A stretch of DNA of 64,000 nucleotides from an uncultured bacterium (GTDB lineage Bacteria > Cyanobacteriota > Vampirovibrionia > Gastranaerophilales > Gastranaerophilaceae), in contig CASDRS010000008.1 in NCBI GenBank assembly GCA_949283255.1, positions 1-64,000 on the forward strand, given 5' to 3'. Positions 6,733 to 23,371 of this stretch are shown here, piece after piece. The stretch's first letter is position 1, and every line of letters begins with the position of its first letter. The position numbers and the translations under genes were made by a program. The notes under the pieces were generated by a model. It made no database searches and was not told the origin of the DNA. It saw nothing but the letters and a program-made list of their open reading frames with translations.

Positions 6733-6942
6733 ATGGAGGAAAATTTATTCAAAGGTAATTTGCATTCTGTAGAAAAGCTTTCTCAAGAAAATACAAATGG
6801 GATTGTTTATTGTTTCCGTAATAGTGGAAATTTTTCGTCTAAAGATGTTGCCTTTGAAGATTATCTTCTTGAAAAAGATAAGACAGGTGATGCTTCAAGA
6901 GTTATTGATTTAGGTTTTGAAGAATATTTAAATGCAAACTGA
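6733..6942 (+). CDS. Small phage protein with repeated FE(E/D)YL motif, possibly scaffold-related
   Basis: This 69-residue acidic protein is preceded by GAGGCAGGG. It contains AFEDYLLEK (about residues 43-51) and ends with GFEEYLNAN. The same short motif ends the preceding protease (AFEEYLKEA). I recognise no family. The motif's recurrence at the C termini of two adjacent head-assembly genes suggests a capsid- or portal-binding peptide, perhaps of a scaffold. That role is inference. Confidence 0.6.
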   Translation: MEENLFKGNLHSVEKLSQENTNGIVYCFRNSGNFSSKDVAFEDYLLEKDKTGDASRVIDLGFEEYLNAN

Positions 6943-7008
6943 TTTTGAAAAGTGCTTGTAATAGGCATTAAGGGGATATATGCCATAAAAATATAAGGAG
7001 AAATTGAA

Positions 7009-7491: not shown

Positions 7492-7531
7492 TTTTATGAC
7501 AATAGTTACTTAAAAATAGGAGATAAAGTAC

Positions 7532-8626
7532 ATGAGACAATCAGAAATTTTAAGTTATATCCCTGCAGAAAAGGTTCATTCTTATGCTATGGATAGTAAA
7601 ACCACTAAACAGACTCTGGAAAAGCTTGGTATTGGTTATACGATGGAAGCTTTTGCCGATATTAAACAATATTCGCATAAGTATGGTATGGATGCTGCAA
7701 TTCCAATGGTTACAACTCCTGGAGTTTCTTCTCCGGCTCAAGTTCTTCAACACTGGATTGCTGAGGCAATAGAAGTTGTTACAGCTGCAAGGGAAATCGA
7801 CAGTATTGTAGGTAGAACTATTGCAGGGAACTGGGCTGATAAGGAAATAGTTCAAAGAGTTTTAGAAAGAACGGGCCGTCCAAGACCTTACGGAGATGAT
7901 ACAGATATTCCGTTATCATCTTGGAATGCCAATTATGAATGCAGGGATATTGTTCGTTTCGAAGAAGGGTGTATGGTCGGAATTCTTGAACAAGAAAGAG
8001 CTGGACGTATGATGATTTCTGCAGAAACGGAAAAAAGAGTTGCGGCAGCTGAAGCCCTTGCTATTGAAATGAATAATGTCGGGTTCTACGGATATAATTC
8101 AGGAAATAACAGAACTTATGGCTTTTTAAATGATCCAAATTTACCTGCGTACGTAACAGTAGCAGAAGGTGCAAAAAGTGATACAAAATGGTCAACAAAA
8201 TCTTATGATGAAATTTGTACTGATATTAGAACTGCGATGAATACATTAAGAGCAAATACAGGTAATTTGTTCAGACCTGAAAGAGATGCTGCCGTTTTAT
8301 CTGTTTCAATTTCTTGTATGGAGTTTTTGTCTGTTCAAAATGATATGGGGACAAGATCCGTTTATGAGTGGGTGAAATCTATGTATCCGAATGTTCGTAT
8401 TGAATCTGCTGTACAGCTTGATGGAGCTAACGGCGGAGAAAATATTTTTGTAGTGCACGCTGAACAGTTGAATGGTAAACGAGTTATGGATCAGTATATT
8501 CAAGAAGTTTTCAGATTGTTGGGCGTTGAAAAGAAAGCAAAAGGCTTTTTGGAAGATTATTCAAACGCTACTGCCGGAATAATCGTTAGACAACCTGTAG
8601 GTGTTGTTAGATATACAGGGATATAA
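7532..8626 (+). CDS. Major capsid protein (DUF2184 family)
   Basis: The 364-residue product is the HK97-fold major capsid protein. Family hallmarks are an N-terminal QLxxI-like region, a central RFEEGCMVGILEQERAG stretch, a GYNSGNNRTYGFLNDP segment (about 187-200) and the C-terminal GIIVRQPVGVVRYTGI strand. AGGAG precedes the ATG. No long pro-sequence is obvious. The length matches related capsid genes, so this subunit should be functional. Confidence 0.88.
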   Translation: MRQSEILSYIPAEKVHSYAMDSKTTKQTLEKLGIGYTMEAFADIKQYSHKYGMDAAIPMVTTPGVSSPAQVLQHWIAEAIEVVTAAREIDSIVGRTIAGNWADKEIVQRVLERTGRPRPYGDDTDIPLSSWNANYECRDIVRFEEGCMVGILEQERAGRMMISAETEKRVAAAEALAIEMNNVGFYGYNSGNNRTYGFLNDPNLPAYVTVAEGAKSDTKWSTKSYDEICTDIRTAMNTLRANTGNLFRPERDAAVLSVSISCMEFLSVQNDMGTRSVYEWVKSMYPNVRIESAVQLDGANGGENIFVVHAEQLNGKRVMDQYIQEVFRLLGVEKKAKGFLEDYSNATAGIIVRQPVGVVRYTGI

Positions 8627-8668
8627 TTTTTATTTTAAAAGTGTTTTCGGGAATATGTGGGAGGAAAA

Positions 8669-9037
8669 ATGACGAAATACATAATGAGTAAAATGAGTGC
8701 AAATGTAAATTATGCAATTTATACAAAAGGTGCAAAAGGATTGAATGAGGTTAAGCAAATAATCACCGTAAACGGCGGTGCTGATGTTGTAGATAAAAAG
8801 ACATTGGTGACGCCTGAGGGAGTGTTAACTGTAGTTAGTGATGAGGATTTTGCAAAGCTTCAGGATAATCCTATATTTAAAAGACATCTTGATAGAGGGG
8901 TGTTGAGTATTTCAAGTAATGAACGAAATGCCCAGAAAAGTTCTGTTGAATTAACGAAGGATGATTCAGCTCAACTAACACCTAAAGATTACAAAAGACA
9001 AGGTAAAAAGAAACCTAAAACCGGAAGGAATCAATAA
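8669..9037 (+). CDS. Head-region protein, unknown
   Basis: The 122-residue product begins at ATG 8669, chosen because GGGAGG lies just upstream; the in-frame start at 8657 lacks one. A globular N-terminal domain (about 1-88) is followed by a basic, Lys/Arg-rich tail (PKDYKRQGKKKPKTGRNQ). It lies between the capsid and DUF4054 genes. A role in head completion or DNA binding in the head is possible but not shown. Confidence 0.6.
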   Translation: MTKYIMSKMSANVNYAIYTKGAKGLNEVKQIITVNGGADVVDKKTLVTPEGVLTVVSDEDFAKLQDNPIFKRHLDRGVLSISSNERNAQKSSVELTKDDSAQLTPKDYKRQGKKKPKTGRNQ

Positions 9038-9039
9038 CA

Positions 9040-9441
9040 ATGTGTGAGACAAATGTTACTTTGGATGAGTTTAAAAAGAGTTTTCCTGAGTTTGTAAATT
9101 TTGAAAATATTGAGTTATACCTTCTTCGAGCACAGTGTTATGTAACTTCAGATAAATACGGAATTTTATCAGGAGACAGTTTAAAGCTGGCTATTTATCT
9201 TTTTACTGCGCATCTTTTGGTATTGCAGAAGAATATAGCACAGGGACAATATTCTTCAGGTATAGCAAATACTGCTACTGTAGATAAAGTTAGTGTTTCG
9301 ATGGTTCCTCCACCAAGTTTGGGGGCGTTTGAATATTGGCTTAATCAAACTCAATATGGTTCCGAGTTACTTGCGTTGTTGAGTTCGAAAACGCCATTGC
9401 CTCTCTTACTTGGTGGTTCCTTTGTCCGTACATTGTTTTAA
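9040..9441 (+). CDS. Head-tail adaptor (DUF4054 family)
   Basis: The 133-residue product matches DUF4054 connectors, which bind under the portal in contractile-tailed phages. The helical N-terminal half resembles gp6/gp15-type adaptors. The C-terminal half has the characteristic VDKVSVSMVPPPSLGAFEYWL stretch followed by TQYGSELLALLSSKT. It starts two bases after the preceding stop. The length is as expected. Confidence 0.78.
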   Translation: MCETNVTLDEFKKSFPEFVNFENIELYLLRAQCYVTSDKYGILSGDSLKLAIYLFTAHLLVLQKNIAQGQYSSGIANTATVDKVSVSMVPPPSLGAFEYWLNQTQYGSELLALLSSKTPLPLLLGGSFVRTLF

Positions 9442-9456
9442 ATCAAGGTAACGATT

Positions 9457-9834
9457 ATGAGTTTAATTAATCAAAATCTGCTTAGTTCTGCTTTGGAAAT
9501 TATTCCAAAGCAGAATTTCAAATATTTAAAATATCTGGGAAATACTATAAACGAGTTTGGAGTTTCTATTCCTCAATATGCTGATTCAGTTGATGTACAG
9601 GGTAGTGTACAGGCAGTGGAAGTCTCTTTGTATAGCAATTTGGATTTAGATATGGAGCAGAATTACAGAATGGTTTATGCTCCGTTGGATATAGGAGGAA
9701 ATGAGAGTCAGGCGCAACCTGACCGATTTATAATCCAAAATTCGGTATGGGAAGTTGTAAAAAATTCTGCTTGGTATGAATTTAATGGCTGGTGCGCAGT
9801 GTTGGTTGTTGAGATAAAGGAATTAAGAAAATGA
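9457..9834 (+). CDS. Neck/head-completion protein
   Basis: The 125-residue beta-rich protein lies between the adaptor and the neck terminator, the slot for a head-closure or collar protein in this phage type. A PDRFIIQNSVWEVVKNSAWYEFNGWC segment near the C terminus is typical of such proteins. Its stop overlaps the next start by 4 nt (ATGA), indicating translational coupling. The function is inferred mainly from order. Confidence 0.6.
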   Translation: MSLINQNLLSSALEIIPKQNFKYLKYLGNTINEFGVSIPQYADSVDVQGSVQAVEVSLYSNLDLDMEQNYRMVYAPLDIGGNESQAQPDRFIIQNSVWEVVKNSAWYEFNGWCAVLVVEIKELRK

Positions 9835-10370
9835 TAAAGATTGAAAATGATATATATAAAGATTTGATTTTTCTTATAAATTTTGCACTGCAAGCTTTTA
9901 ACATAACTGATTGGAATATTTGCCGACTTCCGCAGCCTGTAAAATTCGTAGTGACCAAACCTACTATATATGTTTCGATAAACAAGACTTCTCGGCGTGG
10001 AACTCAATATACAAAAAGGAAAAAAGAAGGTGCAGATTGGGTGTATTTTGAGACCTATCGAGAAGAAATTTATATAACTGTAGGAGCTGTGAAACGTCAG
10101 ATTGCCGGTGAATTAGAAAAATCTTTATCTTCTGTTGATGTATTGAATTTGATATCAACATGGATTGTGAGTCCTGCAGGGCTTGCTCAGGTGAAGAAAC
10201 TTGGTTATGCAATATATAATCCTTCAGATATAAAGCAGCAAAGTTTAAAAAATGATTCTGATAATTTTTCATTAATGCCAAGATTTGACATTACTTTTGT
10301 TACGGAACAAAGTTGGACTCCTTCTACAGAAGAAATTTCAGAGTACAAATTAAAAATGAAAGGGATATAA
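9831..10370 (+). CDS. Tail terminator/neck (gateway-like) protein
   Basis: The 179-residue product resembles neck terminator proteins that cap the tail tube and join it to the head in contractile-tailed phages. It lies immediately before the sheath gene, and the next start is one base after its stop. The pattern is a helical N terminus, then KFVVTKPTIYVSI, then a C-terminal LMPRFDITFVTEQSW strand. Confidence 0.6.
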   Translation: MIKIENDIYKDLIFLINFALQAFNITDWNICRLPQPVKFVVTKPTIYVSINKTSRRGTQYTKRKKEGADWVYFETYREEIYITVGAVKRQIAGELEKSLSSVDVLNLISTWIVSPAGLAQVKKLGYAIYNPSDIKQQSLKNDSDNFSLMPRFDITFVTEQSWTPSTEEISEYKLKMKGI

Positions 10371-10371
10371 A

Positions 10372-11874
10372 ATGCCAATTTCGCAAAATAAATATGTAAG
10401 TATTACCTCATCTCAAGGCGGAGAATCCGCAGCAAAGAGAAAGGATCTTATTTTAAGAGTTTTTACGTCAAATGAACTTTTCCCAACAGGAACAGTTTTG
10501 GAGTTTGCGACTTCTGCTGAGGTATCGGCTTTTGCCGGAGCTAATGCCCTAGAAGCAAAGATTGCTTCTGAGTATTTTGGTTGGGTAAGCAAGCAGACCA
10601 ACAAGGCTAAAAAAATATCATTTATGCGTTATGCAAAAGATGCTACAAAACCATATCTAAGATCAAGTCAAGAGTTAGCACCTCTTTTGAAATTAAAAGA
10701 GGTAACAAATGGTTCAATGATTTTATCTATGGGCGGCGTAAGTTATGAAGTGAAAAATTTATCTTTCACAGAAGCTTCTTCTTATGCTGATATTGCTTCT
10801 GCTATTCAAAGCGCGGTTGTTGCAAATGTTGATGGCGGTGAGTTGTGGACAGGAGCGGAAGTCACTTATGATGCTGAGCTTTCTGCATTCGTTTTAACGG
10901 GTGGTGAAGCCGGAAAAAATATTATAACTTATGCGATGGCTGGTACTGATGGTGATGATGTTTCAAATCTTGTAGGTTGGACAGTTGGTACTAATGCTGT
11001 TGTTTCAAACGGAACAGGTGCTTCTGATGTTAAGAGTGTTTTGAGTGAATCTGTTGATATCTCAAATAATTTTGCATCATTTGCATTTTTGACTGATTTA
11101 ACACCTGAAGATATTGATGCAATAGGTTCTTTTTGTGATGAACAAAATAATGAATATATGTTTGTATTTGATGTGGATAGCACAAATTATTCAGACAGAA
11201 TTGCGGCGGCGCAGAAACATTCCGGCATGTGCGCAAATTATTTAGACACATCAGGCTTGCCTGCATATTTGATGCCAGCCACAATTTTGGCAGCTACAAA
11301 TTATGATAAAGTGAATGGTACAGTAAATTATATGTACCAGCAATTCCCTAATCAAACAGTTGCTGTTGATACTGATATAATGGCAAATAAATTTGATGCT
11401 TTAAAGATTAATTATAACGGTCAAACTCAAAAGTCCGGTACAAAGTTGGAATTTTATCAGGATGGATATTTGGCAGATGGAACTGATATTGGAGTTTATG
11501 CAAATGAAATTTGGTTAAAAGATGCGATGAAAACAGCTATTCTAAATTTGTTGATTGCTCTTGATAAGCTTCCTGCAAATGTTGATGGGATCGGTTTGCT
11601 TGAAGGTGCATTACAAGATGTGGCTTCAGAAGCTAAAAATAATGGAACAATTTCGGCAGAGAAGGAGGTGACGGCAGAGCAAAAAGCTTATATTACTCAA
11701 TATACCGGTGATGAAACAGCTTGGCAAACAATATATTTAAACGGATATGTTCTTTCTGTCGATTTGACACAAGATACTTCTGACGGAAGAACAAAGTATG
11801 TTGCTGAATATACATTGTTATATTCTAAAGGTGATTCTATCCGTAAGGTAGAAGGTACACATACATTAATATAA
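10372..11874 (+). CDS. Contractile tail sheath protein (DUF3383)
   Basis: The 500-residue product forms the contractile outer sheath. The DUF3383 hallmarks are the N-terminal MPISQNKYVSITSS start, the FATSAEVSAFAG segment and the C-terminal VLSVDLTQDTSDGRTKYVAEYTLLYSKGD region, which closes the sheath fold. Full length and intact, it shows that this element is of the myovirus type. Confidence 0.88.
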   Translation: MPISQNKYVSITSSQGGESAAKRKDLILRVFTSNELFPTGTVLEFATSAEVSAFAGANALEAKIASEYFGWVSKQTNKAKKISFMRYAKDATKPYLRSSQELAPLLKLKEVTNGSMILSMGGVSYEVKNLSFTEASSYADIASAIQSAVVANVDGGELWTGAEVTYDAELSAFVLTGGEAGKNIITYAMAGTDGDDVSNLVGWTVGTNAVVSNGTGASDVKSVLSESVDISNNFASFAFLTDLTPEDIDAIGSFCDEQNNEYMFVFDVDSTNYSDRIAAAQKHSGMCANYLDTSGLPAYLMPATILAATNYDKVNGTVNYMYQQFPNQTVAVDTDIMANKFDALKINYNGQTQKSGTKLEFYQDGYLADGTDIGVYANEIWLKDAMKTAILNLLIALDKLPANVDGIGLLEGALQDVASEAKNNGTISAEKEVTAEQKAYITQYTGDETAWQTIYLNGYVLSVDLTQDTSDGRTKYVAEYTLLYSKGDSIRKVEGTHTLI

Positions 11875-11910
11875 AAAGTTAATTATATAAGTAAATGAAA
11901 GGAATAAATT

Positions 11911-12348
11911 ATGCAAGATGTATCAGGTACAGGGTTGTCGTTGACAGTTATAGCTGCATCAACATATCCTAGCGGATTTGTTTGCAAAGCTTTTGCAGAT
12001 GATAGTGATCCGTTAGATTTTCCGGAATTACAAATTACTGAATACGGAATGGGATTAAATGGAGATTTGGTTGTTTGGTCAGCTCCGAAACCTCTTGAAG
12101 TAACAATATCTGTCATTCCGGGTACTGACGAAGAAACCTATTTGGATTTCTTGTTTGAGGCAAATCGAGTTGCAAAAGGCAAACGCTCAAATAAGGATGT
12201 CATTACGTTTATTGCAAATTATCCTGATGGGTCCAAAAAAGTCCTAAGTCCTGGCAGGATTACAAAGGGGCTTCCGGGTAACAGTGTAGCATCAGGTGGA
12301 AGAATAAAAACAAAAACATATAGTTTTGTGTTTGAAAACAGAATATAA
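11911..12348 (+). CDS. Tail tube protein
   Basis: This 145-residue beta-rich protein directly follows the sheath, the expected position of the inner tube subunit. The GDLVVWSAPKPLEVTISVIPGT strand pair and the C-terminal GGRIKTKTYSFVFENRI strand resemble myovirus tube proteins of the KPP10/Pam3 group. GAAAGGAAT precedes the start. The length is usual. Confidence 0.75.
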   Translation: MQDVSGTGLSLTVIAASTYPSGFVCKAFADDSDPLDFPELQITEYGMGLNGDLVVWSAPKPLEVTISVIPGTDEETYLDFLFEANRVAKGKRSNKDVITFIANYPDGSKKVLSPGRITKGLPGNSVASGGRIKTKTYSFVFENRI

Positions 12349-12363
12349 GAAGGGGTTTGTTGT

Positions 12364-12390
12364 CAGTGTGCCTGTTAATCAGGCATGCTG
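12364..12390 (+). other. Hairpin between tail tube and chaperone genes
   Basis: An 11-bp stem with two G-U pairs (12364-12374 with 12380-12390) has a 5-base loop and no T tract. It may be an mRNA-processing or stability element that sets sheath/tube against chaperone levels; this is inference. Confidence 0.45.
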
Positions 12391-12426
12391 GCATTGAATT
12401 TAAAATAATAAAACGGAGGAAATACA

Positions 12427-12849
12427 GTGATTGAACCTAAAGAAATAGAAATAAAAGGTATAAAATTTAATATTTCAAAATTGCCTGCAACCGTAGGTAG
12501 AGAAATTATAGCAAAATATCCGGTGTCAATGATTCCAAAAATAGGTGATTATCGTGTGTCAGAAGAGACAATGATAAAAATGATGGCTTATGTTGAACGT
12601 ATTCGAGATGATGGAACTCCGATAGCATTAGTTAATAAAGCTTTGATTGATAACCATGTTCCTGATTGGGAAGTTTTGGCGCAATTAGAGTTTGCAATGA
12701 TTGAGTATAATTGTAGTTTTTTCGGGAATGGCAAGGGCTTAGCTTTCTTGGAAAAATTCATCTCCCTTGCAGAACCGAAGATTACAGAAATGTTGACCAA
12801 TTTATCGGGCAAATTGTCGCATCAGGAAAAGCCACTTTATACGAATTAA
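12427..12849 (+). CDS. Tail assembly chaperone, short form (gpG-like)
   Basis: The 140-residue protein starts with GTG after a strong CGGAGG. It precedes the tape-measure gene and should coat the tape measure during tail assembly. Codons 97-99 hold the heptamer T TTT TTC (12717-12723), a canonical -1 slippery sequence. Most ribosomes would finish this short form. A minority would shift and make the long form described in the next entry. Helical content and acidic C-terminal segments fit the role. Confidence 0.8.
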   Translation: MIEPKEIEIKGIKFNISKLPATVGREIIAKYPVSMIPKIGDYRVSEETMIKMMAYVERIRDDGTPIALVNKALIDNHVPDWEVLAQLEFAMIEYNCSFFGNGKGLAFLEKFISLAEPKITEMLTNLSGKLSHQEKPLYTN

Positions 12850-12959
12850 AGACGGTATATTCTCTGGAAGATGCTTTCAAAATCTGGGAGGCAGAGGTGA
12901 TACCTAAATACAACGAATATTTAATCTCGGAATATAACAGTAAAAAAATGAGACGTTAA
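12427..12959 (+). CDS. Tail assembly chaperone, -1 frameshift fusion (gpGT-like)
   Basis: The product reads frame 0 from 12427 to 12723, slips back one base on T TTT TTC, then reads 12723-12959, for 177 residues. The -1 frame opens exactly at the slip site (a TAG of that frame ends at the heptamer). It encodes a protein-like 78-residue extension that includes YSLEDAFKIWEAEVIPKYNEYL. This is the lambda G/G-T strategy, where the T domain recruits the tail tube. The slippery site, the frame limits and the position before the tape measure agree. Confidence 0.8.
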
Positions 12960-12960
12960 T

Positions 12961-12993
12961 AAATAGAGGGGAGAAAATTTCCCCCTTCTATTT
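12961..12993. terminator. Terminator-like inverted repeat after the chaperone
   Basis: Outer arms AAATAGA/TCTATTT with inner G4/C5 runs form a stem between the chaperone and the reverse-oriented membrane/TPR gene. It could work in both directions, ending the tail mRNA or the moron mRNA. Confidence 0.55.
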
Positions 12994-13026
12994 CAAAAAA
13001 ATTGCTAATTTGTTTAATGATGTTGT

Positions 13027-13830
13027 TTATTTATTCTCTGTTGAAAAATTCATAAAATCAGGTTTGAATGCCTGAATTAAACGGTATTTTTCTTCAGCCA
13101 TCTCAGGTTTGCCCAGTTGCTCATAGCATTTAGCGAGTGTATATAAGAAAGCACAGTTATCTTCGTTTATTTTTTGGGTTTCAATTCGATATACAGATAA
13201 TTTTTGCAGAGCGACGTCAGGATAACCTATCTTGATAAGAATACTCCCAATAAGTGCAAGAATGCTTGGTCTGTTATTAATTTCCAGTTGAAAATATTTG
13301 CTATTAATATAATCTAAGATTTTTTGGTTTTCTCCCATAGCAAACAAGCATTGAAGATGTTTTACGCGAACCCCTTTTGGGAATGATTTTTCAAGAAACT
13401 CCAGGGCTTCTTGATAGTTACCCATATTGTAATAGCAGTAGTAAATCCAAGAATAAAAATCTGCATCATAATACATATTCTTTTTAATGTTTTGAAAAAT
13501 CTCTAAAGCCTCTTCATATCTACCTTCATTAAATGCTAAAATTCCTGAGTTAATAGTTGCTAATGCTTTATCTTTTTTTGAGTGATTAAAACAAAATATT
13601 GCTAGTGCAATTATTGTAGATATAATTAAGCCTGCGACAGGTTTCCATATTGTGAGTAGGATAAGGACTATTACAGTAGTTCTTATATTCTTTTTTAAAT
13701 TCAGCATCGCCTCTGTATTCCTGATTGCATTGCCGAAAAAGAAGCCCAGTTGCTCTCTGTCAATATTTGTTAAGCTTGTATTTGTTGGAAAGTTCCAAAT
13801 TTTGTAAAATAAAGCTAATTCTTCGTTCAT
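13027..13830 (-). CDS. Membrane-anchored TPR protein, phage moron copy 1
   Basis: The 267-residue product lies antisense to the tail operon. An N-terminal cytoplasmic segment is followed by two adjacent hydrophobic segments (about 49-78, TTVIVLILLTIW and GLIISTIIALAIF). After that come TPR-like repeats (FNEGRYEEALEIF, YNMGNYQEALEFL, LAKCYEQLGKPEMAEEKY). ATG 13830 is chosen because GGGAG precedes it. It is a diverged paralogue of the gene at 14448-15311 and has its own promoter. Phage genes with these traits are typically lysogen-expressed morons. Superinfection exclusion is a plausible role but unproven. Confidence 0.75.
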   Translation of the reverse strand: MNEELALFYKIWNFPTNTSLTNIDREQLGFFFGNAIRNTEAMLNLKKNIRTTVIVLILLTIWKPVAGLIISTIIALAIFCFNHSKKDKALATINSGILAFNEGRYEEALEIFQNIKKNMYYDADFYSWIYYCYYNMGNYQEALEFLEKSFPKGVRVKHLQCLFAMGENQKILDYINSKYFQLEINNRPSILALIGSILIKIGYPDVALQKLSVYRIETQKINEDNCAFLYTLAKCYEQLGKPEMAEEKYRLIQAFKPDFMNFSTENK

Positions 13831-13857
13831 AATTTCTCCCACAGGCTAAGCAGTCAT

Positions 13858-13886
13858 ATTCTACCATGACATTAATAGGGTATCAA
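13858..13886 (-). promoter_or_regulatory. Promoter of moron copy 1
   Basis: On the minus strand TTGATA (13881-13886), a 17-bp spacer and TAGAAT (13858-13863) form a near-consensus sigma-70 promoter reading into the TPR gene. The gene can thus be expressed without the phage late promoter. Confidence 0.7.
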
Positions 13887-13924
13887 TAAGTTAATAAATA
13901 ATAATTTATAAAAGTGAGGTTTAA

Positions 13925-14419
13925 GTGTCTACAAATTCTAATTCTCAAAAGGATATTAATTCTGAGGATAAATATACTTCATTGTATATATCGAGAACTT
14001 CAGAATATGTATCATTAAGTTTAGTTTATTTTAAAATTTTAATGTCTGCATTAAAAGAAGCTGTTGGTTTTGCAATTGACTATTCTGCAGATGTTGCTCA
14101 TATGGCAAGTATGGCAAGGCAAGCTAGGTTAACGATAGAGAAGTTTCAGTCATTATCTAGTGCTGCAAAACAGTCTGGCGGTAGTGCAGAGAATGTTGCA
14201 CAAAGTGTTTCTGTTTTAGGAGATAAGTTAGCTAATCTTAAAAAAGGTGGAGATGGTAATGGATTAAAAGAAACTTTAGAAGCTTTTGAAATAAACCCCG
14301 AAGGGATAAAATCAACAGAGCAATTTTTGGATGTTATATCAGCAAAAATGGCAATGTTGGCAACCGAAACTGAGAAGGTTGATTTTGGACGTGCTTTAGT
14401 GTTGCCTAGTGCAGCCTAG
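13925..14419 (+). pseudogene. Truncated tape-measure protein copy (N-terminal part only)
   Basis: A GTG start after GTGAGGT gives 164 residues homologous to the first ~190 residues of the full tape measure at 15382. Shared blocks are KFQSLSSAAKQSGGSAENVA against KFQTLSNAVKHYGGTADSVA, GGDGNGL against GGNGNGL, and VDFGRAL against LDLGQAL. The copy ends abruptly just after that last block. It lacks the hydrophobic centre and C-terminal domain, so it cannot measure a tail. It is either a remnant of a replaced tape measure or a short partner protein. It is divergent from the TPR gene on its left. Confidence 0.75.
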
Positions 14420-14447
14420 TGTAGTTTCTGTTGTTAAATTAATAATA

Positions 14448-15311
14448 TTAGTTGTTTGTCATATTTTCTATAGTTTTATTTAATTTTTCCTTTATTTCGA
14501 TGCTACCACCATCGAAGTTGAAATTATTTAAAATACTTGCGGTTTTATTTTCTTGTTCAGTATCGCCAGTAGCGTTATAACATTTAGCAAGGAATTGATA
14601 CACTAAATAAAGTTCAGGTTTGTTAGAAGACTTAAAAATGAATTGCTTGCTTGCAATATAATCAATAGCTTTTTGAGGATCTTTGCAGTAGTTCAGATAG
14701 CACAAAGCAGGTAGTACCGCCGCAAACGGATGAGTTTTAAATTCTTCTTCATCAATTACGTTGTTAAGGTAGTCAATAGCTTCTTGATATCTAGCTAATT
14801 GTATGTATTGCAGAAATATTTTAATACGTACATTTGCAATGTTATGGGTGTATAGAAATTCCAGATTTTCTTCTTGTCTGTTAAGAATAATTAGGGAATA
14901 CGAAATCCAGTCATTAGCTCTAACAAATATGATATTGCTTTTGTAAAAATGTTTTAGAGCTTCTTCATATTGTCCATTGTTATAGCATTCCATTCCTTGT
15001 TTTAACGATTTGAATTGTTTGTAATTTATATAAAGATATCCATAAAGAAGAAGGGTTGTGATTGTTAACTCTTTAGGACAAAATGGTATGCTGATTAAGA
15101 TAATTATAAAAATAATTGGATGAGTTAATATTTTTATTAGTAGGAGAAAAGAGTCTAGCATTTTTAAATTTTTATCAAGTTCAATATATTTTTCCGGATA
15201 TCCGTCATTAAACGGATTATTGTTCCCTAATACCTCACCGATTTCTTTAATGATATTGTCTTTAAAAACTCCTTCTAACTTTACATACTTACCAAATAAT
15301 CTTATATGCAT
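14448..15311 (-). CDS. Membrane-anchored TPR protein, phage moron copy 2
   Basis: The 287-residue product is a diverged paralogue of the gene at 13027-13830. It has hydrophobic segments (about 55-90, FLLLIKILTHPIIFIIILISIPF then TITTLLLYGYLYI) followed by TPR-like repeats beginning CYNNGQYEEALKHF. Common marks include LEFL, VRIK/VRVK, DYIxSKxF and LAKCY. The ATG at 15311 follows GGAGGT; an in-frame ATG at 15323 overlaps that site. It is antisense to the tail genes, divergent from the intact tape measure, and has its own promoter. The N-terminal half differs more from copy 1 than the TPR half. Confidence 0.75.
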   Translation of the reverse strand: MHIRLFGKYVKLEGVFKDNIIKEIGEVLGNNNPFNDGYPEKYIELDKNLKMLDSFLLLIKILTHPIIFIIILISIPFCPKELTITTLLLYGYLYINYKQFKSLKQGMECYNNGQYEEALKHFYKSNIIFVRANDWISYSLIILNRQEENLEFLYTHNIANVRIKIFLQYIQLARYQEAIDYLNNVIDEEEFKTHPFAAVLPALCYLNYCKDPQKAIDYIASKQFIFKSSNKPELYLVYQFLAKCYNATGDTEQENKTASILNNFNFDGGSIEIKEKLNKTIENMTNN

Positions 15312-15332
15312 ACATACCTCCATCTAAATATA

Positions 15333-15361
15333 TGTATAACATTTTAAATTTTATAAATCAA
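15333..15361 (-). promoter_or_regulatory. Promoter of moron copy 2
   Basis: Minus strand: TTGATT (15356-15361), a 17-bp spacer and TATACA (15333-15338), with a TG one base upstream of the -10 (extended -10). It has the same architecture as the promoter of copy 1. Confidence 0.7.
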
Positions 15362-15381
15362 GTGACCGAAAGGATATTTAT

Positions 15382-17100
15382 ATGACCAAAAATAATTTTA
15401 GTTATAGTCTAAATTTCAAAAAGGATATTGACAAATTGAATACGGATTTGACAAGCGTTTTTGATATTTTGTCTTTGTTGTCAAATTCTTCAGGTTCTTT
15501 TGTTCGCAATATTTCGGCAATTGGTGGAGCATTTGTTAGTCTATCCAATCCTTTAAAAGTCTTAACGATTGGATTATCCGCATTTAGTGGAGTATTCGAA
15601 GCAACAATGAATTCTGCTGTTAACGGAGAAAAAATGGCAGATTTAGCCGCTCAGAGTGGTATGGCCGTAGATAAATTCCAAACCCTGTCTAATGCAGTAA
15701 AGCATTATGGGGGTACTGCTGATAGTGTAGCGAATACCATGTTGAATCTTCGAAAAAATTTGCAGGATGTGCAAAGTGGTGGAAATGGTAATGGTTTATT
15801 GGAGTTTTTATCAAAAGATGGAATAAATATTTCAGGAATAAAGTCTGCTGAACAATTGCTGCAAATTGTTGCAAGAGAAATGGAAAATTTAGATAGTATT
15901 GCTGAAAAATTAGATTTAGGTCAGGCGCTTGGTTTAGATGATGCTACCATTAGATTAGTTAGTGGCGGTCTTGCAAATTTAAATAATGTAATGGCTGATT
16001 CTGAAAAATATAATTCTTTCTCTGATGAAGATATTGAGCAAGCTCAAGAATTTGAAGCAACCTTGCGTGATATTAGTTCTGGTTTTAGCGCCATTGCTAA
16101 TAATATCGGTTCTGTTGTTTTGCCAATTCTTCAACCAATGTTTTCTCTAGTGAAAAAGATAGTTGATTTCTACGCATCAAATGAAGAGAATCTTAGCATG
16201 CTTGTTAAGGAACTGTCTTTTGTTTTGGGTGGAGTTTTACTTCCAATATTAATTGCTATTGTTGCTGCCGAAGGGTCTGCTCTTGCTCCTATTTTAGCAA
16301 TAATTGTTGCAGTTGCCTTCCTTATAGCAATTTTTTCAGTAATAAACGCTGCACTATTAGGAATAAGGGACTGGGTTTTAGGAGCTCATCCTTTAATAGA
16401 AGGACTTAAACAAAAATGTATTGAGGCCTTGGAGTATTTAATTCGAGGATTTAGAAAATTAGCAGATTTTGTTGTTGAGTTTATTCATAAATTACCTGAA
16501 CGGTTGGCTAAATTACGGGATGCTGCTGAAACTTTGTTTTATAAATTGGCAAATTGTGCAGTCCAAATTTTTCATAAAATAGTTGCCTTAATTAGTAAAA
16601 GGTTTCATAATCTGATTGGTATTGTCAAAGATGTTGTTGGACAAATTTTACAGTTTTTGCCAGAATGGCTTGTTAAATTTTTAAAACAGGGTGGAACTGT
16701 AGGTTTGCTAATAAGAGCAGCTAACAAGGGAAAGGATGCTGTTTTAGGAAGAGATAGAAAATCTGCGACAGCGGCTGCCGGACTCGATTATGTCCCGTAT
16801 GACGGTTACGTTGCAGAGCTTCATAAGGGAGAATCTGTCTTAAATAAAAGCGAATCAAATGTTTGGAGAGATTTGATGCTTGGAAAAGATGCAATTGCGG
16901 CAACTGCTAATATCACTTTGGCTTCTATCCCACAAGGCGCTATTGCTGGTGCGTATAGTAATTCAACAACTACAAAAAACTTTACTATCGGTGATATTAC
17001 TATTCAAACTCAAGCGACTGATGCTGAAGGTATTGCTAATGATTTATTACAAAATATAAAAATGGCTTTTAATGGCTTGGATACAGGAGTTAGAGCATGA
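15382..17100 (+). CDS. Tail tape-measure protein
   Basis: The 572-residue product sets tail length and leaves the tail during DNA ejection. The N-terminal ~190 residues resemble the truncated copy upstream. Hydrophobic segments at about 282-330 could insert in a membrane. A second helical region follows, then a C-terminal VPYDGYVAELHKGESVL motif (about 469) common in tape-measure C-terminal domains. At about 0.15 nm per residue (an established rule of thumb) the tail would be short, roughly 85 nm. GAAAGGA precedes the start. The 3' end overlaps the next gene by 4 nt. Confidence 0.85.
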   Translation: MTKNNFSYSLNFKKDIDKLNTDLTSVFDILSLLSNSSGSFVRNISAIGGAFVSLSNPLKVLTIGLSAFSGVFEATMNSAVNGEKMADLAAQSGMAVDKFQTLSNAVKHYGGTADSVANTMLNLRKNLQDVQSGGNGNGLLEFLSKDGINISGIKSAEQLLQIVAREMENLDSIAEKLDLGQALGLDDATIRLVSGGLANLNNVMADSEKYNSFSDEDIEQAQEFEATLRDISSGFSAIANNIGSVVLPILQPMFSLVKKIVDFYASNEENLSMLVKELSFVLGGVLLPILIAIVAAEGSALAPILAIIVAVAFLIAIFSVINAALLGIRDWVLGAHPLIEGLKQKCIEALEYLIRGFRKLADFVVEFIHKLPERLAKLRDAAETLFYKLANCAVQIFHKIVALISKRFHNLIGIVKDVVGQILQFLPEWLVKFLKQGGTVGLLIRAANKGKDAVLGRDRKSATAAAGLDYVPYDGYVAELHKGESVLNKSESNVWRDLMLGKDAIAATANITLASIPQGAIAGAYSNSTTTKNFTIGDITIQTQATDAEGIANDLLQNIKMAFNGLDTGVRA

Positions 17101-17612
17101 ATTTGAAGTCTGTTGTTACGAATGTTGTTCTTCGGGTTGTGCTGAATTTGAAAAATAAAAATTTCGCGCTCTATAAAGACAACTCTGAAGTGTTAACTAA
17201 TGTGATGTTTATTGATGGCAGTATCGATGATGATGCTAGTCTTATGACACATCCTCTTGAAAATGGTGCTGTTATAACTGATCATATGGTTTTTAACCCT
17301 CATAAAGGCTCATTGTCGGTGTTGGTTGAGGATGAGGATCAAAGTTCACTTTCGGAAATTAGTGAATATTTTCATAATGGAACTTTACTTACGATTAAGG
17401 CTAAAGGTGAAATTTTCCCAAATATGGTTATTTCAGCCAAGCCTTTCAAAGTAAATTCAAATTATTTTAATATGACACAATATTCCCTTTCTTTTTGTGA
17501 AGTGCAGTTAGCTGATACTCAGTATTTGAAATTGACAGAGGAACAAGTGAAGGAAATGAAAAACACTTCAACCTCAAAAATCGGTCAGAAAACTGCTGTT
17601 AAACAATTATAA
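17097..17612 (+). CDS. Baseplate/distal tail (Dit-like) protein
   Basis: The 171-residue product starts in an ATGA overlap with the tape measure, the usual position for the first baseplate protein. The VFNPHKGSLSVLVEDEDQSSLSEI segment and the EIFPNMVISAKPFKVN strand match the Dit-like N-terminal domain that forms the ring at the tube tip. The assignment rests on these motifs and gene order. Confidence 0.65.
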   Translation: MNLKSVVTNVVLRVVLNLKNKNFALYKDNSEVLTNVMFIDGSIDDDASLMTHPLENGAVITDHMVFNPHKGSLSVLVEDEDQSSLSEISEYFHNGTLLTIKAKGEIFPNMVISAKPFKVNSNYFNMTQYSLSFCEVQLADTQYLKLTEEQVKEMKNTSTSKIGQKTAVKQL

Positions 17613-17644
17613 TTACGGCTTTGTTTTGTATAAGGATTTTATTT

Positions 17645-17944
17645 ATGACTACTTATGTTATTGATTTGAAACAAATTCCTAACCAGGAATTTTTTATTAA
17701 TCTTTTGAATAAAGATATGACAATTAGGATTATTGATAGGGGCATTCCTCTCTTTTCTGTTTCTATTAACAATGAATATTTAGTTCAAAATGTGCCTTGT
17801 TTCGCAAATCAAGATGTTTTGCCATACCCGTATATGGTTGCTGAGATTGGTGGAAATTTCAGGTTTGTTTCTTCCGATGACGAGTATCCTAATTGGGAAA
17901 ACTTCGGTTCCACTTGTAACTTGATTTTTGTTACTGAAGAATAA
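17645..17944 (+). CDS. Baseplate plug protein (cyanophage Pam3 gp18-like)
   Basis: The 99-residue product begins at ATG 17645. Features of the Pam3-type plug family are the start MTTYVIDLKQIPNQEF, a central NVPCFANQDVLPYPYM stretch, then GGNFRFVSSDDEYPNWENFGSTCNLIF. The plug closes the tube at the baseplate. This family links the element to contractile cyanophages. Confidence 0.72.
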   Translation: MTTYVIDLKQIPNQEFFINLLNKDMTIRIIDRGIPLFSVSINNEYLVQNVPCFANQDVLPYPYMVAEIGGNFRFVSSDDEYPNWENFGSTCNLIFVTEE

Positions 17945-18003
17945 TCTTTTTTTGTTTTGTATAGTGGCATATTTACTTGTTTTTTATCTTTTTGAGGTGC
18001 TTC

Positions 18004-18858
18004 ATGAAAAGACGAATTTGTTATGTTGAGATTTCGACTCCATCCGGTGTAAAGCAGATTAAAAATATTGCGATTTCCGGTACTGTTAAACGCAGAATGG
18101 GTAGTGTTGCTGCTGAAGCTAAGGTCTCTATTGCAAATCTGGCAAAAGACGATATCGAATATCTTTCTACATATATGTCATCGTATGTTGAACCGGCGAA
18201 GCAGAAAAAGATAAGTATTTATGCCGGCTATGAGGATACAGGATATGGAATGATTTTTTCAGGCGATATAATACAAGCGATACCTGAAGGTCATACTGAT
18301 GTTTGGCTGAAAATTGACGCTAAAACAAATTATTTTAACAGACAAAATATAATAACTTATTCGACTACTTCTCCTGTTACTTCTTTTCAGATGGCGCAGA
18401 ATATAGCAAATGAATTAGATGTTCCGTTGTCGTGGAAAAGTAAATCGAAAAAACTTATTGATTCATTTAATTTTGCCGGTGCAAAAGCAAAACTTATAGA
18501 CGAATTAAATAAATATGGCGACTTTACCGCATTCCTTGATAATGGAATGTTGAAAGTTGTTGATAAGGATGAAGTGCCTAACAATCAATCAGGCTCAGGT
18601 AGTACGGAGGGGGACATAAAGCTTATAAATATACATTCAGGGCTTATAGGCTTTCCGATGTCAACAGAGTACGGGGCTAAATTTAAGGTTTTATTAGACC
18701 CGACTCTTAACCCTTCGGATTGGGTAAAACTTGAGTCCGAAAAATTTCCTGCAATTAATGATTATTACCAAATATATGACTTAACATTTGATTTTTCATC
18801 TTATGACCAAAATTTTTATTGCGAAATTCAGGGTAAAAATTATAAAAGGAATAAATAA
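18004..18858 (+). CDS. Baseplate hub protein
   Basis: The 284-residue product starts at ATG 18004 after TTGAGGTG. It has the gp27/gpD-like hub layout. An N-terminal beta domain with VKRRMGSVAAEAKVSIANLAKDDIEYL is followed by a central domain, a Gly/Ser-rich linker (NNQSGSGSTEG, about 197-207) and a C-terminal domain ending in NFYCEIQGKNYKR. The hub connects tube and spike. Its position between plug and spike supports this. Confidence 0.68.
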   Translation: MKRRICYVEISTPSGVKQIKNIAISGTVKRRMGSVAAEAKVSIANLAKDDIEYLSTYMSSYVEPAKQKKISIYAGYEDTGYGMIFSGDIIQAIPEGHTDVWLKIDAKTNYFNRQNIITYSTTSPVTSFQMAQNIANELDVPLSWKSKSKKLIDSFNFAGAKAKLIDELNKYGDFTAFLDNGMLKVVDKDEVPNNQSGSGSTEGDIKLINIHSGLIGFPMSTEYGAKFKVLLDPTLNPSDWVKLESEKFPAINDYYQIYDLTFDFSSYDQNFYCEIQGKNYKRNK

Positions 18859-18860
18859 TA

Positions 18861-19499
18861 ATGACTGATATAACACAAACTATTCCTGCACGTGAACCTG
18901 CAGATACAAATTCTTTGGAAGGGTTGTGCAGACTGATTAAGGATATTACTTTGATGGATATGGAAAAAGTTATCCCGGGAATTGTGCAATCTTATGACAG
19001 AAGTACTAATCGAGCAAATGTAAAACCTGCTATTACGGGTATTGCTTCTTTAGGTCAAAAAATATCCAAGCCTGTTCTTGTAAATATTCCTGTTCTAACT
19101 TTACAGGGTGGTGGAATTTTTTTGAGCTTCCCGTTAAAGGCAGGTGATAGGGGTTGGTTGCTTGCTTGCGATAGAGATATCTCGGTTTTTAAACAGAGTT
19201 TGGAAGAGTCTTCTCCTAACTCTTATCGAAAACATTGTTTTAATGATGCCTTTTTTATTCCCGACAAAATTAACAATATAACTGTTAGTGAAGATGATGC
19301 TTCTGCTTTTGTTATTTCTACTGTTGACGGCGGGACAAAATTTTCGATAAAAGAAAATGAAGTTAAAATTGTCGGTAATACTTCTATTGAAGGTTCTTTA
19401 ACTGTTTCTGGAGATGTAATCGGAAATGGGATAAGCTTGTCTGCGCATGTACATAGCGGAGTTCAAACAGGTTCAGGAAATACGGGGGTGCCTCAATGA
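18861..19499 (+). CDS. Baseplate spike protein (Gp138-like)
   Basis: The 212-residue product opens with an N-terminal OB-fold region matching the Gp138 family (IPGIVQSYDRSTNRANVKPAI, about 36-56, then FPLKAGDRGWLLACDRDIS). It ends in a short beta-helix-like repeat (TSIEGSLTVSGDVIGNG) and a histidine-containing SAHVHSGVQTGSGNTGVPQ tip, like metal-binding membrane-piercing spikes. It would form the central spike. The 3' end overlaps the next ATG by 4 nt. Confidence 0.78.
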   Translation: MTDITQTIPAREPADTNSLEGLCRLIKDITLMDMEKVIPGIVQSYDRSTNRANVKPAITGIASLGQKISKPVLVNIPVLTLQGGGIFLSFPLKAGDRGWLLACDRDISVFKQSLEESSPNSYRKHCFNDAFFIPDKINNITVSEDDASAFVISTVDGGTKFSIKENEVKIVGNTSIEGSLTVSGDVIGNGISLSAHVHSGVQTGSGNTGVPQ

Positions 19500-19840
19500 A
19501 GACAATAGCTACTGATGATAAAAATGATTTGTATATAGATGCAGGCGGTAATATAGCTATTTTAAATGATATTGATGCTCTTGCAAATATATCTAAAAAT
19601 GCTGTGTTAACAAATGCCGGGGAGTTGTCTTTTAACAAGCAAAAGGGAATTCCTTATATGGATACTATTTTTGCTGATGAAGCGAATATTGATATTTTTC
19701 AAGCTAGCATAATTCAGACGCTTGAAAGTCTAGATGGTGTAGAAAGAGTTTCTTCATTCTCTTATTCCGTAGATGGTGGAGTTTATTCTTATAAAGTTGA
19801 AGAAACAACAGAATTCGGAACGGTGGTTTTAAATGGCTAA
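19496..19840 (+). CDS. Baseplate wedge protein (gp25/W-like)
   Basis: The 114-residue product resembles the gp25-like wedge proteins that start sheath polymerisation at the baseplate. It has an N-terminal AGGNIAILNDIDALANISKNAVLTNAGEL region, followed by FNKQKGIPYMDTIF and a C-terminal GVERVSSFSYSVDGGVYSYKV strand pair. ATGA overlaps the preceding spike gene, and its own stop overlaps the next start by 8 nt. Confidence 0.75.
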   Translation: MKTIATDDKNDLYIDAGGNIAILNDIDALANISKNAVLTNAGELSFNKQKGIPYMDTIFADEANIDIFQASIIQTLESLDGVERVSSFSYSVDGGVYSYKVEETTEFGTVVLNG

Positions 19841-21029
19841 TTATAATTATATTACCAGTAGTGGTACTGTTGTGCCTGATACTGCTGATGTAAAAGAAAT
19901 TGTACAAAACGAGTATAAAGAAGCTTTGGGCGATGATATTTCATTGGAGGACAGTACTCCTCAAGGCAGGCTTATTGATATTGAGACTACAGCAAGGACT
20001 GCAGTGATTGAGAATAATGCTTTGGTGGCAAATCTTTTCAACGTAATGTTATCTTATGGTATTTTTCTTGATGCAATGTTGGCTAATTTCGGGATGTATA
20101 GAGAAGGTGCAACTGCAAGCCGGGTTGAAGTTATTTTAACAGGGCAAAAAGGTACTGTTATCCCTGCAGGATCGCAAGCTTCTACTTCTGCCGGTGTTAT
20201 TTTTTATTCTGAAAACGATTTAACTATAGGAGAAGACGGTACTGTTAATGGTGATTTTCTATCCTTAGATTTGGGTGAGATTGCTTGTGCAGCAGGCGAA
20301 TTGAATAAAATTGTTGATGGAACCTTCGGGTGGGAAACAATTTCAAACCCTGCCCCCGCGGATTTAGGAACAGATAAAGAAAGTGATGCGCATTTTAAAC
20401 AGAGATTTTTAAATTCAGGGTTGTTTACAGGAAAAGCTCTGCTTGAAAATTATTATAAAGTTATATTGGATACGGAAAATGTAAAAAGCGCTTTTGTATA
20501 TGATAATTATACAGATACGCAGGTAGAATATGATACTGTCACAATTTTACCACACTCTGTTTATTGTTGTGTAGATGGTGGTAATGATGAGGATATTGCT
20601 AATGCAATATTTTCTGTAAAATCAGTCGGATGCGGTTTTACAGGTACAACTTCTGTTCAGGTAAAAGATGATATTTTTGGAGTTTTGTATAATGTAAAGT
20701 TTAGCCGTCCCGAACTTGTTAAAATTTATGTTTCTATAACTGTGGATAAGGGAACTTCTGCGTCTACTGAACTTGAAAATACAATAAAGGAAGCTGTTCA
20801 AAAGTTTGCAAGTGGTGATATCTCAGGGTATGACGGATTAAATATAGGAGTCAATGTTTCTCCGTTTGAGATGGCGGCTGCTGTTAATACATATATCCCG
20901 GGAATTACTGTTAAAAATTTGCAGGTCGGTTATTCTGAAGATGAGCTCTCTGTCGAGGAATTAACTATCCATGTTTGCGAGCGTGCTGTTGTTTATAACG
21001 ATAATATTAAGGTGGTTATTAATGAGTAA
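19833..21029 (+). CDS. Baseplate J-like protein
   Basis: The 398-residue product matches the J/gp47 wedge family. Family features are the N-terminal DSTPQGRLIDIETTARTAVIENNALVANLFN, the central FKQRFLNSGLFTGKALLENYYKVILDTENVKSAFVYDN and a C-terminal VNVSPFEMAAAVNTYIPGI region. It forms the baseplate periphery that carries the fibres. It sits between gp25-like and DUF2612 genes in the canonical order, with overlapping starts and stops. Confidence 0.88.
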   Translation: MANYNYITSSGTVVPDTADVKEIVQNEYKEALGDDISLEDSTPQGRLIDIETTARTAVIENNALVANLFNVMLSYGIFLDAMLANFGMYREGATASRVEVILTGQKGTVIPAGSQASTSAGVIFYSENDLTIGEDGTVNGDFLSLDLGEIACAAGELNKIVDGTFGWETISNPAPADLGTDKESDAHFKQRFLNSGLFTGKALLENYYKVILDTENVKSAFVYDNYTDTQVEYDTVTILPHSVYCCVDGGNDEDIANAIFSVKSVGCGFTGTTSVQVKDDIFGVLYNVKFSRPELVKIYVSITVDKGTSASTELENTIKEAVQKFASGDISGYDGLNIGVNVSPFEMAAAVNTYIPGITVKNLQVGYSEDELSVEELTIHVCERAVVYNDNIKVVINE

Positions 21030-21624
21030 ATTTTTTGAATTTGCGAACGAAATTAATCTTGAAAGTCAAATTCTTTGGCAGTACGCAAATGCAGATAAAA
21101 TGAATAGTTTGCTTTACCAAAAACAAGATTGGTACAGTGAAAAACAGCAAGGCTTTTGGCAGAATTGGGCAAATGATGTTTTGAATATTTCAACCGCCAA
21201 TGATTACGGGCTCTCAATTTGGGGTAATTTACTTCAGGTTGCAAGAACTTATGACGTAAACGGTGAAATGATTACGCTTGATACAGAACAATATAGATTG
21301 CTTTTGAAGGGTAGATTACTTTATTTAAGGATGAACGGTAGCGCACCTGACATCAATGAATACCTTAATCTATTGTTTAAGGAAGATGGAAGGGCTTTTG
21401 TTCGGGATAATTTGGATATGTCAATGACTTATATATTGGAGTTTATCCCGACTGCTGAACAGCTTGTAGTATTGTTGAATACAGGAGTTTTACCTCGCCC
21501 AGCAGGGGTTGGGTATAAGATTTATGTGATTGTTCCTGATAAAGTTTTCGGATTTGCAGGCAGTAATCTTGTAGGGTTTGATCAAGTCCCGTTTTGGGAT
21601 GGTTTGGATTGGAAGAATAAGTAA
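21022..21624 (+). CDS. Baseplate protein, tail protein I-like (DUF2612)
   Basis: The 200-residue product starts at ATG 21022 after AAGGTGG; the upstream in-frame start lies deep in the J gene. It has the WGNLLQVARTY segment, a short helical LLLKGRLLYLRMNGSAPDINEYLNLLF core and the C-terminal FGFAGSNLVGFDQVPFWDG end typical of DUF2612 baseplate proteins. These proteins bridge the J protein and the tail fibre. Confidence 0.75.
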   Translation: MSKFFEFANEINLESQILWQYANADKMNSLLYQKQDWYSEKQQGFWQNWANDVLNISTANDYGLSIWGNLLQVARTYDVNGEMITLDTEQYRLLLKGRLLYLRMNGSAPDINEYLNLLFKEDGRAFVRDNLDMSMTYILEFIPTAEQLVVLLNTGVLPRPAGVGYKIYVIVPDKVFGFAGSNLVGFDQVPFWDGLDWKNK

Positions 21625-21637
21625 AAACGGAGGTTTT

Positions 21638-23366: not shown

Positions 23367-23371
23367 TTTGT

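Follow-up and report, generated by a model that had tools for sequence, protein, structure and literature searches.

In the window analysed here, a 64,000-nucleotide stretch from the genome of a gut bacterium of the order Gastranaerophilales, a contractile-tail phage element carries antisense genes and a truncated tape measure protein (TMP) gene between its tail assembly chaperone and its full-length TMP. The question raised by this locus is whether these genes are debris, inserts at a permissive site, or parts of a unit that changes together with the TMP. A sequence-only reading of the same DNA had described two tandem units, each consisting of a minus-strand TPR gene divergent from a TMP start, and open reading frames are indeed present in this order: chaperone, TPR1 (-), truncated TMP (+), TPR2 (-) and full-length TMP (+) (Table 1).

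Content and inheritance of the phage element

On the chromosome, the element has a fixed position, with mnmE on one side and a T2SSF-family gene on the other. The same borders are found in G238 and G027, two genomes that, together with that of the window (G000), represent three related species forming one clade (94/97). Synonymous divergence (pS) is 0.690 for the element and 0.684 for the flanking host genes; thus, the element has been inherited vertically at a fixed locus, as a GTA or a domesticated phage particle would be. Head, packaging and tail genes are present, while neither family matches nor inspection of the remaining ORFs revealed integrase, replication or repressor genes in the element, and this gene content is also that of a domesticated particle. 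The dN/dS values of the element genes are mostly 0.02–0.3. The element appears to be old, host-owned and domesticated, and it probably still makes a particle. The ordinary-prophage setting assumed in the sequence-only reading does not apply to an element that lacks an integrase and is vertically inherited in three species. Specifically, an ordinary active prophage was rejected because the integrase is absent from this locus in all three. A tRNA attachment site was set aside as well, the window containing no tRNA.

Table 1. Features of the element and its variable slot (window coordinates)
Feature	Position	Strand	Basis or remark
Contractile-tail phage element without integrase	about 2470..24787	+	genes for terminase, portal, capsid, sheath
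Tail assembly chaperone gene, left slot flank	12427..12958	+	weak PHROG match
Bidirectional intrinsic terminator, chaperone/TPR1 gap	12968..12985		terminator scan
TPR1 and TMP-fragment module, absent from G238	13004..14435		blastn junction
TPR1: short N-terminus, hydrophobic hairpin, TPR domain	13027..13830	-	Pfam TPR
Promoter-like site of TPR1 (TTGATA-17-TAGAAT, 10/12)	13858..13886	-	position only; not above chance
Truncated TMP, 164 aa: N-terminus and globular domain	13925..14419	+	PHROG tape-measure match
TPR2: hydrophobic hairpin and TPR domain	14448..15311	-	sub-cut-off TPR model matches
TPR2 transmembrane segment, residues about 51-105	14986..15140	-	divergent in the G000/G238 comparison
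Weak promoter-like site of TPR2 (TTGATT-17-TATACA, 8/12)	15333..15361	-	sequence reading; absent from promoter scan
Full-length TMP, 572 aa	15382..17100	+	PHROG TMP, E 6e-26
TMP globular domain, residues about 82-190	15625..15951	+	alignment; structure model
TMP 3' end, right slot flank	16757..17107	+	96-100% identical to G238

The slot and the exchange of its cassettes

The slot begins behind the chaperone gene, which is made up of ORF 12427–12849 and an overlapping frame reaching about 12958. Terminator-like sites are enriched in the region (8 found, 1.0 expected); the bidirectional terminator in the chaperone/TPR1 gap had been overlooked in the sequence-only reading. The near-consensus promoters proposed there for both TPR genes were overstated, since the region contains 13 promoter-like sites versus 14.5 in shuffles and the TPR2 site matches the consensus at merely 8 of 12 positions.

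TPR1 exceeds several Pfam TPR cut-offs and TPR2 matches TPR models below cut-off. As had been suggested, the two proteins are related but strongly diverged (25% identity, E 2e-10); the nearest relative of TPR1 is TPR-A of G027 (35% over 268 aligned positions, E 9e-51). Each contains one hydrophobic hairpin at about residues 51–84, from which an inner-membrane location is predicted. The PH-domain (bPH_3) proteins, which the slot takes besides TPR proteins, display no obvious membrane segment on inspection. The AlphaFold model of TPR2 is a helical repeat (pLDDT 71) whose structural neighbours are generic TPR proteins, none below E 0.001. Comparison of the TPR family with defence and phage libraries gave nothing beyond generic repeat matches, PADLOC defence models gave only weak generic repeat matches with no system matched, and domain searches found no nuclease or effector domain in the antisense proteins of the slot.

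Both TMPs of the window match PHROG tape-measure families and are homologous in a domain at residues 51–189, where the fragment aligns with residues 51–188 of the full-length protein (38% identity, E 1e-23). The relationship of the two N termini noted earlier holds for the globular domain (about residues 80–190) but does not extend to the first 58 and 83 residues, which are not detectably similar (z 0.3). The globular domain is common to all TMPs and TMP fossils aligned, and the AlphaFold model of the TMP is confident only for about residues 81–214 (pLDDT 69–90 over residues 81–210). The fragment stops at the position corresponding to TMP residue 189, where the homology of fragment B of G027 stops too. 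In G027 the globular domain recurs as DNA repeats of 78–96% identity, and it is a probable homology arm for cassette exchange. Pfam and PHROG searches found no known toxin domain in the TMP.

Comparison of the three species reveals how the slot changes. Between G000 and G238, two stretches, one running from the middle of the chaperone gene to TPR2 and one covering the TMP 3' end, are 94–100% identical against a background of ~73%, while TMP residues 1–458 are wholly different alleles. According to sliding identity, the near-identical block starts at about 12551, inside the chaperone gene, where pS is 0.167 (12551–12849) versus 0.61 upstream. In the TMP 3' end pS is 0.063, and identity falls to about 66% at the stop codon. 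The TPR2 transmembrane segment stands out with 54–62% identity per 50-base window in surroundings of 84–100%, and with 48 nonsynonymous differences per 131 sites. In G238, blastn blocks 7512–13003 and 14436–15365 abut in a clean junction, leaving no TPR1/TMP-fragment module; TPR2 is kept as an orphan (84% identity), and a PH gene, a new TPR gene and a new TMP N-terminal part lie between the equivalents of 15365 and 16757. The G027 slot reads fragment A, TPR-A, fragment B, PH, TPR-B, TPR-C and full TMP, i.e. three TPR genes, one PH-domain gene and two TMP fossils.

These comparisons bear out the proposal, made from the window alone, of a cassette exchange in which the TMP N-terminal part is replaced together with neighbouring antisense genes and older copies persist. 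Relative to the window, G238 has had the variable TMP end and the partner gene replaced jointly, as in CDI-like systems. Displaced modules are retained in all three genomes: the TMP fragment with TPR1, its former partner, in the window, TPR2 in G238, and fragments A and B in G027. Cassette exchange with retention of old partners is well supported, and the divergence values show that the G000/G238 block moved between species recently while the rest of the element was inherited vertically. Taken by itself, this architectural and evolutionary part of our explanation is highly probable.

A possible function of the antisense proteins

Our preferred explanation is that a vertically inherited contractile phage element holds a hypervariable slot, which extends from the tail chaperone to the conserved TMP C-terminus. 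An incoming cassette would bring a new N-terminal part of the TMP and at least one antisense moron, be it a TPR membrane protein, a PH-domain protein or both. It would become linked to the resident tail through recombination in either the conserved domain or the C-terminus of the TMP. The exchange would truncate or delete the old TMP N-terminus, and the old antisense gene would remain. The antisense protein would be an inner-membrane protein of the producer, made at times when the particle genes are silent, and would keep particles with the cognate TMP from delivering DNA or damaging the membrane, an exclusion or immunity role for which HK97 gp15 is a precedent. Joint replacement of TMP front and antisense gene, with former partners staying in place, is what such a shield would lead one to expect. 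Orphan antisense genes would keep protection against former siblings, a role also suggested for the orphan immunity genes of CDI systems. The entire statement of a domesticated element, a cassette slot and cognate exclusion has, in our estimate, an even chance of being correct. If it is, the tape measure, usually regarded as a ruler and DNA conduit, becomes a polymorphic determinant of self and non-self whose history is recorded in genetic fossils, and Gastranaerophilales possess a domesticated phage particle of the contractile type. Furthermore, the part of the TMP recognised at the inner membrane becomes testable, because the cassettes found in nature vary in defined segments of the N-terminus and in defined partner genes.

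Among 286 genomes, all seven TPR2-like matches and both PH matches sit in the TMP slot. TPR genes away from tape measures, which the sequence-only reading had named as contrary to its proposal, were not found for the TPR2-like group in this set, and an origin as dispersed host genes was set aside for the same reason. Weak TPR1 matches at E about 1e-6 resemble generic TPR proteins. Neither the TMP alignment nor TPR2 found relatives in IMG/VR, and TPR2 matched none of 50,697 phage records. A TMP C-terminal motif search yielded 60 viral contigs, 56 of which have a readable TMP start; none of these 56 showed a convincing antisense gene. The few antisense ORFs listed for them resemble shadow ORFs by inspection, those of L136 and L140 less clearly so.

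The slot might instead be a permissive recombination hotspot, its TPR and PH genes being generic morons that help the host otherwise and lie beside the TMP because the site tolerates inserts. The slot does accept unrelated genes (TPR, bPH_3 and, in the true prophage G027:C19, a two-TM protein), tail-fibre ends are likewise exchanged, so mosaicism is not peculiar to the TMP, and co-variation between the types of TPR protein and of TMP N-terminus is not significant (r = 0.36, 15 of 120 permutations as high, just 5 pairs), although N-terminal length classes 58/59 and 83–88 correspond to two TPR groups. This explanation nevertheless appears rather unlikely: in G238 the TMP alleles and antisense genes change in the same events, TPR2-like genes are restricted to the slot, and gp15 of HK97, whose gene has the equivalent position, acts in a way linked to TMP type (PMC10883804). 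A general defence that senses the TMPs of foreign phages is decidedly unlikely. Its model would be SNIPE, a membrane nuclease that cuts DNA and interacts with the TMP during injection; the TMPs concerned are those of siphoviruses, and some homologues attach to the membrane via PH-like domains (PMC13190303), and related prophages do occur in the same hosts (G027:C19). However, the antisense proteins contain neither SNIPE domains nor any detected nuclease or effector domain, and the TMP N-terminus with which their genes move is the element's own; this argues for a target in self rather than in foreign phages.

Client-protein binding is common for TPR domains, and a TPR protein might serve as a TMP-specific assembly factor or regulator, either as a chaperone of the variable N-terminus or by controlling TMP expression in a divergent or antisense manner. 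The divergent gene arrangement and the bidirectional terminator agree with such a role, but it is highly improbable given that the distant relatives L025, L075 and L076 have the same tail without such an antisense gene, that G238 keeps TPR2 despite losing its TMP N-terminus, and that the TPR members have hydrophobic hairpins. Finally, the absence of integrase, replication and regulatory genes and the shortened TMP fragments could be signs of a decaying prophage with the antisense genes as debris. This is barely plausible for an element whose structural ORFs are unbroken in three species with low dN/dS, whose TPR2 is under purifying selection outside the hairpin (p 0.003), and in which one block was swapped recently across species while the remainder stayed vertical.

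Comparison with known systems

RcGTA keeps its structural and packaging genes vertically and has no integrase or replication genes. The element described here is similar in these respects, but it is contractile (it has a sheath gene) and resides in Gastranaerophilales; GTA exclusion cassettes are unreported as far as we searched. The carotovoricin tailocin of Pectobacterium is also a vertical, one-site phage-tail cluster with cross-species exchange at one hypervariable locus (PMC13195805). Unlike here, the exchange concerns tail fibres, the particle is headless, and there is no TMP/partner cassette.

Exclusion directed at the TMP has precedents. The Ltp lipoprotein of Streptococcus thermophilus phage TP-J34 is an exclusion moron that targets the TMP, and allelic differences alter its activity (PMC3952083); unlike the TPR proteins, it is surface-exposed, single-copy, and belongs to a siphovirus of a Gram-positive host. 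HK97 gp15, a superinfection-exclusion moron with a predicted inner-membrane location, blocks DNA injection, and HK97 hybrids with the tail tube and TMP genes of HK022 escape it (PMC10883804). Its gene lies between the tail assembly chaperone (gp13/14) and the tape measure (gp16), with a terminator, and the slot genes of the window and its relatives lie between the same neighbours. The claim of a new self/non-self system at the tape-measure locus must therefore be narrowed: a locus whose product excludes by tape-measure type is not wholly new. What differs is that gp15 is about 62 aa long, encoded on the strand of the tail genes, single-copy and part of an ordinary siphovirus prophage without TMP fossils or an array, and that no homology between gp15 and the TPR family was seen. 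None of the known exclusion proteins directed at the TMP is a TPR protein, and the examples cited here target siphoviruses, which counts against the exclusion reading. The non-significant co-variation, the weak promoters, the purely generic library matches of the TPR family and the PH proteins with no obvious membrane segment count against it as well.

In CDI and Rhs systems, a new variable end with its partner gene integrates into the large structural gene and displaces the old module, and orphans may stay for immunity (PMC4927057). The slot likewise swaps a variable end with its partner and retains orphans, but here the C-terminus is conserved and the N-terminus variable, the partners are antisense and the TMP has no known toxin domain. 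We tentatively put forward, as a possibility on the doubtful side, a mirror image of polymorphic immunity, in which a vertically inherited, GTA- or bacteriocin-like contractile particle would have its specificity in the TMP N-terminus and its immunity in the antisense TPR/PH proteins, with orphans accumulating upstream through interspecies cassette exchange.

The structural gene cluster and its inheritance

The antisense TPR genes lie in a phage-like structural gene cluster (the element) that encodes terminase, portal, capsid, sheath, tube, chaperone, tape measure protein (TMP), baseplate, fibre and, judged by inspection, an M15-like peptidase. In the phage region of the window, no gene could be recognised for an integrase, a repressor or replication. 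The element is bordered by mnmE, a 99-aa minus-strand gene and a 134-aa gene upstream of the terminase gene and by a T2SSF-family gene after the M15-like gene. The cluster recurs, between the same neighbours, in two genomes of the genus, G238 and G027, in the latter spread over contigs C14, C30 and C17 (the C14/C30 overlap is 77 bases). The sheath gene is found in 3 of 13 genus genomes, these carriers only; an mnmE tree built from 11 members of the genus groups them in one clade (support 94/97). Synonymous divergence between the window and G238 is 0.690 in structural genes and 0.684 in flanking host genes. The simplest reading is that the element was acquired once and then inherited vertically under purifying selection. 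Contractile, lacking an integrase and passed on vertically at a single site in three species of Gastranaerophilales, the cluster may be a gene transfer agent or a domesticated particle. A separate G027 prophage of the same tail type (contig C19) does carry replication-type genes.

Features of the element and its borders in the window
Feature	Position	Strand	Description
99-aa gene	1806-2105	-	Membrane-like; between mnmE and element; 75-78% conserved in the three carriers; may belong to host or element
Element	2470-24787		Contractile structural cluster
Module	13004-14435		TPR1 and TMP fragment; missing in G238, clean junction
TPR1	13027-13830	-	267 aa; short N-terminal part, hydrophobic hairpin, C-terminal TPR domain
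TMP fragment	13925-14419	+	
TPR2	14448-15311	-	287 aa; same architecture as TPR1
Full TMP	15382-17100	+	
Tail fibre	21578-22861		First 139 residues (69%) common with G238 orthologue; remainder unrelated
M15-like peptidase	24371-24787		Putative endolysin; 39% identity to G238 gene, 58% to G027, far under most neighbours

The tail fibre is a second exchanged locus, since only the shared N-terminal stretch matches the G238 orthologue; the M15-like peptidase is possibly another swapped gene. In L067 (17468-19503) and L023 (1-957; G027 contig C14), additional genes, one of 415 aa and one a long ORF rich in Lys and Glu, sit between matches to window 6006-6713 and 7009-7491; they are missing in the window and G238.

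Antisense genes and their tape measures

The four ORFs singled out by the sequence-only reading (TPR1, TMP fragment, TPR2 and full TMP) are present as described, and the likeness of the two TPR proteins is confirmed (25% identity, E 2e-10); their hydrophobic hairpins both fall at about residues 51-84. At 38% identity (E 1e-23), the TMP fragment aligns to full-TMP residues 51-188; each of the two matches PHROG tape-measure families. Their common part is a globular domain (about residues 81-214, confident in AlphaFold). The claimed similarity of the TMP N-termini holds for this domain but not for the first 58 and 83 residues, which are not detectably similar. The promoters proposed for the TPR genes are candidates by position only: promoter-like sites are no commoner than in shuffles, and the TPR2 site has only 8 of 12 consensus bases. 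A bidirectional terminator lies between chaperone and TPR1.

TPR genes were also said to be tied to tape measures. Among 286 genomes of the order, all TPR2-like (7/7) and PH-domain (2/2) matches fall in the slot (the stretch between the tail chaperone and the conserved TMP C-terminus). Two antisense PH-domain (bPH_3) genes follow the chaperone, nearly to the contig end, in an 8-kb viral contig (L074, 71% sheath). In the C19 prophage (L022 6536-7186), the same slot holds, beside the TMP, an antisense gene that has no relation to the TPR family; its product has two hydrophobic segments. The antisense gene is absent in four more distant relatives (L025, L075, L076, L077; chaperone-to-TMP gap about 90-140 bases). 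In 56 other viral contigs with the TMP C-terminal motif no convincing antisense gene was seen, most of the antisense ORFs listed there being apparent shadow ORFs and two undecided.

Exchange at the slot

The element background between the window and G238 is ~73% DNA identity. Two blocks reach 94-100%: one begins within the chaperone gene (about 12551) and takes in most of TPR2, the other runs from 16757 to the TMP stop, beyond which identity is about 66%. Synonymous divergence (pS) in the exchanged pieces is 0.167, about 0.08 and 0.063; given the otherwise near-saturated synonymous divergence, the region was recently exchanged between the two species. Within TPR2 the transmembrane segment has diverged (54-62% identity), whereas the rest is near-identical. 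In G238 the stretch between the equivalents of 15365 and 16757 holds a PH-domain gene and a new TPR gene, and the TMP N-terminal part there is a different one (nonsynonymous divergence, pN, 0.39-0.56 vs 0.15 for the element), so the TPR2 of G238 is an orphan. Outside the hairpin, TPR2 shows 14 nonsynonymous and 11 synonymous differences, the former fewer than neutral (p 0.003).

The G027 slot reads chaperone, TMP fragment A, TPR-A(-), TMP fragment B, PH(-), TPR-B(-), TPR-C(-), full TMP. Fragment B has 139 bases in common with fragment A (95.7%) and 288 with the full TMP (78%); the TMP domain thus supplies direct repeats for recombination. Fragment B and the window TMP fragment stop at about the same TMP position. 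With three related loci and one partial contig as comparison base, this evolutionary description of element and slot is very probably correct.

Proposed exclusion function and known systems

The sequence-only reading held that TPR gene and TMP N-terminus are exchanged as a matched exclusion pair, leaving old copies. Across five TPR/TMP pairs, chosen by adjacency, the TPR groups (window TPR1 and G027 TPR-A; window TPR2, G027 TPR-C and the new G238 TPR) coincide with TMP N-terminal lengths (58, 59; 83, 88, 87), a pattern noticed post hoc, but r = 0.36 was equalled or exceeded in 15/120 permutations. The window TMP and the G027 TMP have like N-termini (z 10.7), and their TPRs are alike too (z 18.6); between the two short N-termini no similarity is detectable (z 1.2). 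The sequences are suggestive of co-variation.

In HK97 the same slot houses the gene for gp15, a superinfection-exclusion protein predicted to be inner-membrane; HK97 hybrids that carry the tail tube and TMP genes of HK022 are described as escaping it (PMC10883804). Ltp has the TMP as its target (PMC3952083), and an interaction with the TMP is described for SNIPE (PMC13190303). By analogy with these proteins, the targets of the TPR and PH proteins would be particles bearing a matching TMP, with the inner membrane as the site of action; we give such an immunity function roughly even chances. The antisense genes are presumably expressed, and particles presumably produced. In our incomplete coverage of the literature, neither a gene transfer agent from Gastranaerophilales nor a tape-measure cassette with antisense genes was found to have been reported. 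Orphan CDI modules are proposed fossils retained for immunity (PMC4927057); the slot would follow the same retained-orphan logic with conserved and variable ends reversed. It also resembles tailocin fibres, where one hypervariable locus is exchanged within an otherwise conserved phage-tail cluster (PMC13195805).
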